Origin: a virus
IMG/VR virus record: IMGVR_UViG_3300042934_000568
Coordinates: 1-20,721 of that record
Direction: 5' to 3' (one strand)
DNA: 20,721 nucleotides
In this document: positions 11,567 to 17,471 of the stretch, piece after piece
Numbering within the stretch: position 1 is the first letter of the stretch
Layout of the letters: each line of letters starts with the position of its first letter
Notes under the pieces: generated by a model
The model's database searches: none
What the model saw: the letters and a program-made list of their open reading frames with translations, nothing else
Told to the model about the DNA's origin: nothing
Translations under genes and position numbers: made by a program

Positions 11567-11630
11567 GAATCTATCGGCTCGCTGTATCAGGGGTTGGTGT
11601 ATCTGCTCGTAAGGGTCATGGGCGAACATC

Positions 11631-11659
11631 TTGTGAACCGTAACGACAACCAGTACACT
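11631..11659 (+). promoter_or_regulatory. Sigma70-type promoter for the mini-cassette, leaderless
   Basis: TTGTGA (11631-11636), a 17-bp spacer and TACACT (11654-11659). The ATG at 11666 begins 7 bases after the last base of the -10, so the transcript would start at the start codon. Confidence 0.6.
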
Positions 11660-11665
11660 TCACGC

Positions 11666-11818
11666 ATGGAGACCACAATGGACGTCGACACCAGCATCTT
11701 CCCCGCACGCTGGCTCCACATCGACGACTTCACCGTCTGCGACAGGCACGAAGTGTGCACCAGGGACACGTTCGTCCGCGGCGGGCGACCGGAGCACCCC
11801 GATAACCTGACCGTGTGA
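11666..11818 (+). CDS. 50-aa protein of unknown function, first gene of a self-contained cassette
   Basis: The start is set by the promoter that ends 6 bases before it. The frame is also open upstream but lacks a ribosome site there. The product is 50 residues with no signal peptide or membrane segment. It has a compact central part (IFPARWLHIDDFTVCDRHEVC) with two Cys seven residues apart (C-x6-C) and an acidic, His-rich character. I do not recognise it. Its stop overlaps the GTG of the HTH gene by 4 bases, so the two form one unit. Confidence 0.5.
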   Translation: METTMDVDTSIFPARWLHIDDFTVCDRHEVCTRDTFVRGGRPEHPDNLTV

Positions 11819-12006
11819 ACCCGCGCGGCACCGTGACATCTGAAGACGCCGACCTCATCAAGCAGGCACACGCCGAGAAGGTCGCTGCGGACGCGAACTG
11901 GCGTCGCGTGGTCCTCGACGTAGCGACCCGCTCGAGCGTCCGCGAAACGGCGAAAGTGGCTGGGATCTCCCCGGACACGATCACGCAGTGGAAGAAACAC
12001 AACTAG
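11815..12006 (+). CDS. 63-aa helix-turn-helix protein
   Basis: GTG start overlapping the stop of the 50-aa gene. Residues 30-62 (WRRVVLDVATRSSVRETAKVAGISPDTITQWKKHN) form a helix-turn-helix in which 'S-V-R-E-x-A-x-x-x-G-[IL]-S-x-[DN]-T-I-x-x-W-K' is readable. The same pattern is in the 72-aa protein in front of the integrase gene (16382-16600), so the two are probable relatives. The family resembles small HTH regulators or terminase-small-subunit-like DNA-binding proteins. A regulatory role for the cassette or for lysogeny is inferred. The hairpin terminator starts 13 bases later. Confidence 0.65.
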   Translation: MNPRGTVTSEDADLIKQAHAEKVAADANWRRVVLDVATRSSVRETAKVAGISPDTITQWKKHN

Positions 12007-12018
12007 ACACGTAGGCCC

Positions 12019-12060
12019 GACGAAGCCCCCGGAACCGTATTGGTCCGGGGGTTTCGTCTT
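12019..12060 (+). terminator. Strong hairpin terminator of the mini-cassette
   Basis: Stem GACGAAGCCCCCGGA (12019-12033) pairs with TCCGGGGGTTTCGTC (12044-12058) over 15 bp including one G-T pair, with a 10-nt loop that can close partly. TT follows. It separates the cassette from the endolysin gene. Confidence 0.8.
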
Positions 12061-12081: not shown

Positions 12082-13683
12082 ATGGCTAAGCTTCCAATGC
12101 CGTTCGGCAACCCGGCAACCTACCCCGGCCACTCGGGGATCGACTACCCGCAGCCGCGAGGTACGGTCATCCGCGCCTCCGGTCCGTTCACAGTCAAGAC
12201 ACTGTCACGTAACGGCAGCGGCGGGTTCTACATCTGGGTGCAGTACCACGGTGGCCCGCTCGTCGGCTATCACCACATGGACTCCCACGCTGGTTGTCCC
12301 CCCGTGGGCTCCAGTGGCGGCGAGGGTGCCCGGCTGGGATTCGTCGGCAGCACGGGCAACTCGACCGGTCCGCACCTTCACTCCGAAGTTGCGGGACACG
12401 CGACCACGGCCGGCTACTGGCTGTTCTTTGACCGGAGCCGCGTAGTCGGCGCCGGTTCGACCACGGGAGGAAGCGGCATGCTCGTAGTAGACGGCGATTG
12501 GGGTGCAGCGACCACCTCAAAGTTGCAGTCCGTTCTCGGCGTGACGGTCGACGGTCAGCTGGGACCGCAGACCATCTCCGCGTTGCAGGGGCGTCTTGGC
12601 GTGGGTGTTGACGGGCAGATGGGACCGCAGACGATCGCCGCGCTTCAGCGGGTGGTTGGTTCGCTCGCGGATGGAATCCTCGGACCCAACACGGTGAAAG
12701 CGCTCCAGACGTACCTGAACAACGGTGGCACGTTTGGCGCAGCCACCCCGCCTCCCGTACCCACGGGGGCTCTCGTTGTCGACGGGTCATGGGGTGCAGC
12801 CACCACAGCCGCGTTCCAGAAGAGCCTCAACGTCACGGCCGATGGGGAACTGGGTCCGATCACATGGAAGGCATTCCAGACCGCGGTGGGAATCACCGTG
12901 GACGGCATCCCCGGTCCGCAGACGTACAAGGCGCTTCAGATGAACGTCGGTGCCACGGTTGATGGGGCTCTCGGCCCGGAGACCGTGAAGAAGCTTCAGG
13001 AGCACCTGAACGCGGGCAAGGGGTGGACGAAGGTCACACTCCCCGCTGAGCCCGTCGCATCACCCGCGGAACCGCGCACGCCCGTCTACCCTGACGCGCT
13101 CCGCGGGTGGACCGTACCGCTCTCCAGCGACCGCGCAGCAGGCTCCGTCATCAACCGGCTCATCATCCACCACACCACGAACACCGGAGACGAGGAGCCG
13201 TACTTCAAAACGAAGAACGACCGCTCATCCTGCCCGACGTGGTACGTGAAGGCGAACGGTGACGTGATCGAGATGATTGCGCCGGAGAAGCGCCCGAGCG
13301 CGACCGGTTCCGCGAACACTTACTCGGTGGCGATCGAGACGCAGAACACCTCCGGCTCGCCGTCATGGGGCATCTCGCAGGACTCTCACGAGACGATCGC
13401 CCGTATTGCGGCGTGGCTGTCGAAGCAGTCGAAGTTCGGTGCGTTCACCGTCGACATCAAACTCGACCGGACGCACATCATCGGTCACAACGAGGCTGGC
13501 GTGAACGCGACCGCGTGTCCCGGCCCGTCGATGAATCTGGATGGAATCGTGGCGCGTGCTGTAGAGCTCGCCGCCGCGCCCGATCCTGACCCGGTGGAGA
13601 CGGTCACACTCACCCGCGAGGCGTTCGACAAGATCCGCGCGAACCTCACCGCTGCGCTCGAGGCGTTGGGAGGTGCCTCGTGA
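12082..13683 (+). CDS. Endolysin: M23 endopeptidase + eight wall-binding repeats + amidase
   Basis: 533 residues from ATG 12082. The frame is open 14 codons upstream, but that part runs through the terminator. Residues 1-125 are an M23 metallopeptidase with HxxxD (His17, Asp21) and HLH (His98, His100) zinc sites. Residues 135-213 and 231-310 each hold four consecutive 20-residue repeats with core 'V-D-G-x-x-G-P-x-T-x-x-A-L-Q', related to peptidoglycan-binding type 1 modules. A Pro-rich linker (311-340) follows. Residues 341-500 are an amidase-2 domain with zinc ligands His363 (IIHHTT), His469 (IIGHNEAG) and Cys479 (ACPGP). A C-terminal tail of about 33 residues ends the protein. It would cut both peptide bridges and the amide bond to the sugar chain. 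Holins follow directly. Confidence 0.93.
   Translation: MAKLPMPFGNPATYPGHSGIDYPQPRGTVIRASGPFTVKTLSRNGSGGFYIWVQYHGGPLVGYHHMDSHAGCPPVGSSGGEGARLGFVGSTGNSTGPHLHSEVAGHATTAGYWLFFDRSRVVGAGSTTGGSGMLVVDGDWGAATTSKLQSVLGVTVDGQLGPQTISALQGRLGVGVDGQMGPQTIAALQRVVGSLADGILGPNTVKALQTYLNNGGTFGAATPPPVPTGALVVDGSWGAATTAAFQKSLNVTADGELGPITWKAFQTAVGITVDGIPGPQTYKALQMNVGATVDGALGPETVKKLQEHLNAGKGWTKVTLPAEPVASPAEPRTPVYPDALRGWTVPLSSDRAAGSVINRLIIHHTTNTGDEEPYFKTKNDRSSCPTWYVKANGDVIEMIAPEKRPSATGSANTYSVAIETQNTSGSPSWGISQDSHETIARIAAWLSKQSKFGAFTVDIKLDRTHIIGHNEAGVNATACPGPSMNLDGIVARAVELAAAPDPDPVETVTLTREAFDKIRANLTAALEALGGAS
12484..13011 (+). repeat. Eight 20-residue protein repeats, two blocks of four
   Basis: The repeats start at endolysin residues 135, 154, 174, 194 and then 231, 251, 271, 291. 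Each first copy of a block begins LVVDG[DS]WGAATT, so the 4-repeat block seems to have been duplicated as one piece around an Ala/Pro linker. At DNA level the copies are diverged. Confidence 0.8.
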
Positions 13684-16381: not shown

Positions 16382-16600
16382 CTACTCGCCGCGCTTCCAT
16401 CGGCTGATTGTATTCGTCGACAGTCCCGTGAAGGCGGCTAGCTCGCGCACGGACGCCCCATGCTGCGCCGCAGTGACGACCGACTCTCGGATCTCCATCA
16501 ACGCCTCCTCGCGCCGCTCGAGCGCTGTGCGAATGCGCGCCTGATCGGCGTCATTGATGAGTCCTCGCTTCTGGGGCACACCCCCGACTGTAGCGCTCAT
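16382..16600 (-). CDS. 72-aa HTH protein ahead of integrase
   Basis: ATG 16600. Residues 16-47 form a helical part (INDADQARIRTALERREEALMEIRESVVTAAQHG), and residues 49-71 (ASVRELAAFTGLSTNTISRWKRGE) an HTH with 'S-V-R-E-L-A-x-x-[TA]-G-L-S-x-N-T-I-x-R-W-K'. It shares this pattern with the 63-aa protein at 11815-12006. It is transcribed with the integrase (6-base gap) from a leftward promoter with inverted repeats. It may control integrase expression or act as an excision/lysogeny regulator. Confidence 0.7.
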   Translation of the reverse strand: MSATVGGVPQKRGLINDADQARIRTALERREEALMEIRESVVTAAQHGASVRELAAFTGLSTNTISRWKRGE

Positions 16601-16649
16601 CGCGACACGGGGCAGAACGGGCCGGGAATCGTTGCGATCATAGCTACAG

Positions 16650-16679
16650 GTTATACCAAAACGTAGCGGGAAGCGCTAC
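16650..16679 (-). promoter_or_regulatory. Leftward promoter with operator-like inverted repeat
   Basis: Minus strand: extended -10 TGG-TATAAC (plus 16650-16658). The inverted repeat GTAGCG-GGAAG-CGCTAC (16663-16679) covers the spacer and -35 position. The half-site AGCGCTACA recurs in opposite orientation at 16589-16597, over the HTH start codon. A repressor bound here would switch off the HTH-integrase operon. Confidence 0.5.
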
Positions 16680-16681
16680 AA

Positions 16682-16709
16682 CTTTGGGCTTCATTAACAG
16701 AAGCCAAAG
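16682..16709. repeat. Inverted repeat in the switch region
   Basis: CTTTGGGCTTC (16682-16692) faces GAAGCCAAAG (16700-16709), 10 bp pairing with one bulged base and a 7-nt AT-rich centre. A protein-binding site or RNA hairpin. Confidence 0.45.
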
Positions 16710-16732
16710 CGAGTCGTACAACTTAGCTAGCG

Positions 16733-16750
16733 TCGTTACCGAATCGTTAC
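16733..16750. repeat. TCGTTAC direct repeats, 11-bp spacing
   Basis: TCGTTAC occurs at 16733-16739 and 16744-16750, one helical turn apart, in an AT-rich stretch. A related TCGTACA lies at 16714-16720. The helical phasing suggests cooperative protein binding. Confidence 0.35.
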
Positions 16751-17119: not shown

Positions 17120-17396
17120 CAAAAAACTGTTCCGGGGTGACCCCGAGAAGAACAATGGCCCGCAGCAGGAAGTCGGCCGGCATCTCGCGTTCACCCCGGA
17201 AGTACCGTCCAACAGTGTTGTCGGGCTCACTCATGGCGTCAGAGAACTTCCCTCGAGTGCCGTACACGTCGAGGGCTTCCTTCTTTAGTTCGCGCACCAC
17301 GTCAGCGGTGGTCAGAGGCGCGTCATCCACGGCGTCGATACTAGCCGTTCCTGTTGCGAGGAAGGTGGCAGAGGAGGCCTTTTGGGTCTTATCCAT
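17076..17396 (-). CDS. Immunity repressor candidate (XRE-type HTH)
   Basis: 106 residues, ATG 17396 with GAGAGGGC ahead. Residues about 30-95 read as an XRE/lambda-repressor-like HTH: DVVRELKKEALDVYGTRGKFSDAMSEPDNTVGRYFRGEREMPADFLLRAIVLLGVTPEQFF. It contains 'T-V-x-R-Y-x-R-G-E-R' and the final L-G-V motif of this family. It is divergent to the Cro-like gene with a 111-bp region between them that contains a perfect palindrome. This is the typical repressor/Cro layout. No protease or dimer domain as in lambda CI is present, so induction would work another way. Confidence 0.7.
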   Translation of the reverse strand: MDKTQKASSATFLATGTASIDAVDDAPLTTADVVRELKKEALDVYGTRGKFSDAMSEPDNTVGRYFRGEREMPADFLLRAIVLLGVTPEQFFANARATRSVPTKGD

Positions 17397-17471
17397 GCCC
17401 TCTCAGAGACGCGGGATCCCCGTCTGATACATCGGTGTAGCCAAAAAGTTGCGTGACATGGCCGAAAAGGG

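Follow-up and report, generated by a model that had tools for sequence, protein, structure and literature searches.

Candidate leaderless promoters and a family of small proteins in a probable moron between the fibre and lysin genes of a temperate phage

We analysed a 20,721-base virus record (the window, i.e. the whole stretch of DNA) and concluded that two small genes located between its fibre-like gene and its lysin gene probably form an optional moron of a temperate phage, which would be expressed during lysogeny from leaderless promoters and regulated by its helix-turn-helix (HTH) protein. The cassette is of a known kind, a moron, with an unusual stack of promoter-like elements; its new elements are the bipartite motif P1 and the family of the small protein. 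The genes are arranged in the order fibre-like gene, small ORF, HTH gene, hairpin and lysin (Table 1). All DNA matches of the lysin region (37/37) are Microbacterium phages, and the host group is probably Microbacteriaceae. The phage group is known from contigs of a few metagenomes, and all of the evidence is sequence, from which we infer promoter activity, expression in lysogeny and DNA binding of the cassette. An initial annotation of the window had described the promoter-like TTGTGA-N17-TACACT (P2 below) in front of ATG 11666 and two coupled small genes; both descriptions were correct, positions included, and the two genes overlap by GTGA.

Table 1. Positions of the cassette, its elements and related loci (window coordinates unless a contig is named).
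Feature	Position	Strand	Remarks
Fibre-like protein, 401 aa	10361-11566		5' neighbour of cassette
Cassette unit (promoter region, small ORF, HTH gene)	11578-12006		Between fibre and lysin
P1: TGTATCA 11583-11589, 16 nt, CTC 11606-11608	11583-11608	+	First T 35 nt 5' of ATG 11618
Possible 66-aa form of small protein, starting MGEHLVNRNDNQYTSRMETT	11618-11818	+	ATG at the +1 of P1; reading frame uninterrupted in every complete type A relative
P2: TTGTGA 11631-11636, N17, TACACT 11654-11659	11631-11659	+	6 nt before ATG 11666
Small protein, 50 aa	11666-11818	+	Coding signature, invariant residues, C-x5-C
P3: TAACCT	11803-11808	+	Within the end of the small ORF, 6 nt before HTH GTG; not noticed earlier
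HTH protein, 63 aa, GTG start	11815-12006	+	GTGA 4-nt overlap with small ORF; Pfam HTH_28
Hairpin terminator of fibre/lysin junction	about 12019-12057	+	By folding; present in empty-slot relatives
Lysin: M23 peptidase, peptidoglycan-binding repeats and Amidase_2 in a single polypeptide	12082-13683		3' of hairpin
Second P1 copy: TGTATCA 17431-17425, CTC 17408-17406	17396-17431	-	Before g17076, ATG 17396
Slot-2 paralogue of small protein, 50 aa	L062:5367-5516	-	P1-led, 3' of holin; also L064, L067, L083, L118
Che8 gp45-gp44	L131:3786-4189
Gudmit 31-32	L129:3807-4330

The initial annotation had suggested a search for the gene pair in other prophages and plasmids. About 30 related contigs carry the pair or a diverged allele of it, so it is far from absent among the relatives. 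Near copies of the pair came from IMG/VR contigs of two metagenomes, and diverged alleles were found by using the neighbouring genes as bait for the occupants of the fibre/lysin slot; the pair was not found in INPHARED phages, PLSDB plasmids or GTDB (~85,000 genomes), the last by scans sensitive only to near relatives. The slot holds at least three divergent allele classes, A (the allele of the window), B and C, and the B and C proteins are roughly 31-40% identical to the cassette proteins of the window. In two relatives (L062 and L100) the slot is empty and the fibre stop codon is followed directly by the terminator and the lysin; that is, as for a moron, the cassette is present in some relatives and missing from others at one site. 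DNA similarity of type A relatives to the window extends in several of them from ~11578-11582 to ~12064, and these limits are constant while the flanking fibres and lysins vary: the M23-type lysin is retained 3' of the cassette in L002 and L004, other relatives carry different lysins, and the fibres vary as well.

The description of the cassette as self-contained could be kept in part. The optional insert and its promoter-like elements stand, and the terminator does not belong to it: since L062 and L100 also have the hairpin, the terminator is part of the backbone and is used by the insert. The hairpin folds at -34 kcal/mol (z -5.2), relatives with other stem sequences fold too, and the terminators of the B and C cassettes align with those of the empty-slot relatives. 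The composition of the cassette genes (63-64% GC) is not distinct from that of the window (63%) as it might be in a moron; the promoter region (52% GC) is the only part of the cassette below the window's value.

The differences among relatives in the small ORF number 66, 80 and 198 at codon positions 1, 2 and 3, respectively, which is a coding signature. P2 points to ATG 11666 (50 residues) and P1 to ATG 11618 (66 residues). In the intervening 11618-11665 the differences number 63, 70 and 78 with no coding signature, and this equal distribution favours promoter constraint over coding, the stretch possibly being both promoter and coding sequence. An SD-like GGAG precedes the in-frame ATG 11678, which remains as an alternative start of the small ORF. 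The small protein had been noted as a new-looking C-x6-C protein; it does belong to a family new to the libraries searched, and its cysteine spacing is C25-x5-C31. In alignment A7, which includes alleles A, B and C, L123, L127 and the slot-2 gene, the invariant residues are P13, H18, D20, D21, C25, C31 and R33. No match to the small protein was found in Pfam, PADLOC or NCBIfam (best PHROG E 0.055), a PDB sequence search with the small-protein profile gave no match, and the structure model (pLDDT 69) was too weak for a fold search. A zinc motif C-x2-H-x2-C was considered and rejected: H28 varies in the B/C alleles, and H18, C25 and C31 alone are invariant among the H/C residues.

A paralogue of the small protein is encoded on the opposite strand in a second optional slot (slot 2), which many relatives have after the holin gene; it is missing from the window and present in L062, where the fibre slot is empty. 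A profile built without the slot-2 proteins detects them in 14 records (about 8e-7 to 5e-5), and no HTH partner accompanies the paralogue in the copies examined. As far as the libraries searched go, these ~50-residue H/D/C proteins are an undescribed family that occupies two separate optional slots. The small ORF and the HTH gene are not inseparable, because L123, from another metagenome, carries the small ORF alone, with neither an HTH gene nor a recognisable promoter. The small ORF of L127 ends sooner, with no overlap onto the HTH gene.

The HTH gene is under coding constraint, with 113, 91 and 260 differences at codon positions 1, 2 and 3. Its product matches Pfam HTH_28 at 25.6 bits (cutoff 25), and the AlphaFold2 model (pLDDT 92; helices 9-39, 42-49 and 53-62) predicts a helix-turn-helix at the C terminus, after a long first helix. 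No significant hit was obtained in a fold search with this model, the best being Fis (E 0.8). The resemblance to the HTH protein encoded before the integrase, pointed out in the initial annotation, was borne out at 34% identity; PHROG 5497 (HTH DNA binding protein) matches the integrase-side HTH at 4e-12 and the B/C alleles at 2e-8 and 3e-7, and the cassette HTH of the window reaches only E 0.0084. A PADLOC mad1 match of a B-type HTH (E 1.6e-4) does not extend beyond the helix-turn-helix and was regarded as generic. Of the 5 B/C loci tested, 4 have an inverted repeat (arms 20-21 nt) that runs from the TGTATCA of P1 into the -10 of P2; where B and C differ in one arm, the other arm has the matching difference, which is what a paired operator would show, and this fits a dimeric regulator. 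The repeat was looked for in type A, the allele of the window, and none was found; for type A, autoregulation is thus argued from the homologues and is weakest. The pairing in L087 of a B-type HTH with an operator of type C warns that specificity is not strict.

Several of these properties would suit a type II toxin-antitoxin system in reversed order, in which the small protein is the toxin and the HTH protein an autoregulating antitoxin with an internal promoter. The 4-nt overlap, the DNA-binding second gene with a separate promoter-like element and the mobile, allelically diverse slot speak for it, as does the predominance of leaderless transcripts among M. tuberculosis toxin-antitoxin pairs (PMC3898074). 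A toxin needs its antitoxin, however, and the small genes of L123 and slot 2 stand alone; beyond the generic HTH, no toxin or antitoxin match was found in Pfam, NCBIfam or PADLOC. We consider this reading unlikely and favour a moron expressed in lysogeny.

The lysogeny part of the favoured reading comes from P1, which consists of TGTATCA at -35 and CTC at about -11. The combination TGTATCA-N16/17-CTC was observed 20 times in 11 records against 0.25 expected, and 3 times within the window against 0.02 expected. The first base of P1 lies exactly 35 nt before an ATG or GTG in cassette A and in the slot-2 gene, and the same holds for g17076 and for the repressor-position genes of G007 and G008, so that repressor-position genes of three immunity regions have P1 at the fixed distance; in L009 the distance differs by one base. 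As a control, viral contigs were scanned for a strict form of P1, and the matches outside the phage group, chance matches for the most part, have ATG or GTG at +35 in 2 of ~76. The B and C alleles keep P1, but its +1 precedes a short leader. Because of the fixed distance to the start codon, P1 looks like a leaderless promoter and not like an operator. g17076 is flanked by the integrase side and by a divergently oriented regulator gene, which is the repressor position in an actinophage such as Gudmit; its HTH matches are very weak, and by position it would be the immunity repressor. Sharing P1 with the repressor-position gene suggests that the cassette is on during lysogeny. More tentatively, and with somewhat less than even confidence, we propose that P1 may be a dedicated class of leaderless lysogeny promoter of this phage group, served by an alternative (non-housekeeping) sigma factor or by an activator of the phage and defining a small regulon of the repressor, two H/C micro-protein slots and perhaps a non-coding RNA.

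A third P1 copy in the window (18616-18290, minus strand) has no start codon at +35, and copies resembling it, followed by TTCCCTTCGAC, are present in G009 and G010 and, less closely, in G007. This copy possibly leads a non-coding transcript. The P1-led stretch 18581-18290 (minus strand) was rejected as a structured RNA, as its folding (z -0.56) is not better than chance, and an Rfam scan of the window gave no match above chance.

A connection of the cassette to the lysogeny switch had been proposed in another form, as cross-talk of the HTH protein at 16589-16710. This was not supported. The shared GTAACGA, the one motif found in common there, was rejected as evidence (4 copies against 1.8 expected in the window; 9 of 100 shuffles reach 4), and cassettes are also present in contigs with no detected homologue of the integrase-side HTH and with an integrase only distantly related. 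The supported link of the cassette to the lysogeny region is the P1 shared with g17076. Two other observations were made in this region. A tandem GTAACGA-N4-GTAACGA is located 5' of the integrase-side HTH (window 16733-16750, minus strand); some relatives have related GGTAACG forms, and the ten other contigs gave no match to the double site. A 14-codon micro-ORF, MIATIPGPFCPVSR (window 16641-16597, minus strand), has TANNNT-N6-ATG at its start and overlaps the integrase-side HTH start by ATGA; in relatives both of its ends are conserved, its middle is variable and its length shifts by whole codons.

P1 being common to the cassette and the repressor-position genes could also be taken as part of a switch, in which the HTH protein controls the small protein and the latter inactivates the repressor, leading to lysis. 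The TF-smORF modules of prophage induction offer a precedent, with a transcription factor that activates an adjacent small-protein gene whose product inactivates cI (PMC10432266). In that case the small gene is divergent, whereas the two genes here are collinear with a GTGA overlap. In addition, a near-identical cassette stands alongside a different integrase in G001, divergent cassettes stand alongside different repressor-position genes in G007 and G008, and the cassette is missing from two phages. Such a switch is quite unlikely in our judgement.

For the lysogeny-expressed moron, P2 and P3 would act as further leaderless promoters. TANNNT ~12 nt 5' of the start codon is a mark of leaderless genes in bacteria (PMC3160421), and TANNNT is the main -10 motif in M. 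tuberculosis (PMC3898074); both cassette genes have TANNNT at -12 and match the published actinobacterial leaderless genes (PMC3160421, PMC3898074). In P3 it was found at exactly -12 of the HTH start in 27 of 27 loci, many of them close kin, in six hexamer forms, with an expectation of 0.16% at this codon register, and it persists in L127, where the hexamer falls outside the small ORF. Among 30 gene starts of the window, TANNNT at -12 precedes the two cassette genes and the micro-ORF at 16641 only; as background, 0.9% of ATGs and 0.35% of GTGs overall have it. P2 alone is not significant by an E. coli sigma-70 score. Its position and 6-nt gap to the ATG are retained in the aligned type A relatives, and the window and 8/8 aligned type A relatives have the spacer bases AACCGTAACGA without change. 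As in a moron with promoters of its own, P1, P2 and P3 are conserved candidate promoters, and their geometry is conserved across divergent alleles. An ordinary late-operon segment, in which the small genes are expressed together with the genes for fibre and lysis and the promoter-like elements have no role of their own, would agree with the strand and position of the cassette and with the lack of a recognisable promoter before the small ORF of L123, and it is very unlikely given this retained geometry and the absence of TANNNT at -12 from all structural and lysis gene starts of the window. A boundary conserved mainly for recombination of fibre and lysin modules is highly improbable: fibre and lysin types do swap around a nearly constant unit, but both genes are under coding constraint and three divergent allele classes would recombine poorly with each other.

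The favoured moron might work as follows. During lysogeny, the small H/C protein would be expressed from the ordinary leaderless P2 and from P1, whose leaderless class also precedes the repressor-position gene, and the third leaderless promoter, P3, would yield the HTH protein separately. The HTH protein would regulate the unit, most likely by binding around P1 and P2. The small protein would probably be a compact metal-binding effector directed against the host or competing phages.

Identification of prophage genes that are active in the lysogen normally takes RNA-seq. In this phage group one element at an exact distance from the start codon is found both at the repressor-position gene and at the small genes of the optional slots, and with P1 shared at a fixed distance the lysogeny-expressed cargo could be predicted from sequence.

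In comparison with known systems, the cassette is like phage morons in general in being an optional insert among late genes that has promoter-like elements and is probably on in lysogeny; it differs from them in the backbone terminator and in three stacked leaderless-type elements, one of which is common to the repressor-position gene. The CarolAnn gp43/44 defence pair was considered and is not related to the cassette. A small gene with a 4-nt overlap onto a broadly similar small HTH gene is found in mycobacteriophage Che8 (gp45-gp44), Gordonia phage Gudmit (31-32) and Arthrobacter phage Auxilium (32-33), and the small genes of Che8 and Gudmit have TANNNT-N6-ATG as in the cassette. The partner proteins of these three pairs are unlike the H/C protein, however, their loci are near the integrase, and their HTH starts are without the P3 signature. 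The SAS/ESAS elements of cluster K mycobacteriophages recur across the phage at a set distance from start codons, and some of them have 17-bp inverted repeats (PMC3203893); the 13-mer SAS resembles a ribosome site and lies 3-7 bp from the start, whereas P1 is bipartite with its parts at -35 and about -11. The layout of P1 is like that of the ECF41 sigma-factor promoters, TGTCACA-N16-CGTC (PMC3426412); the motifs differ, and the likeness is one of resemblance only.
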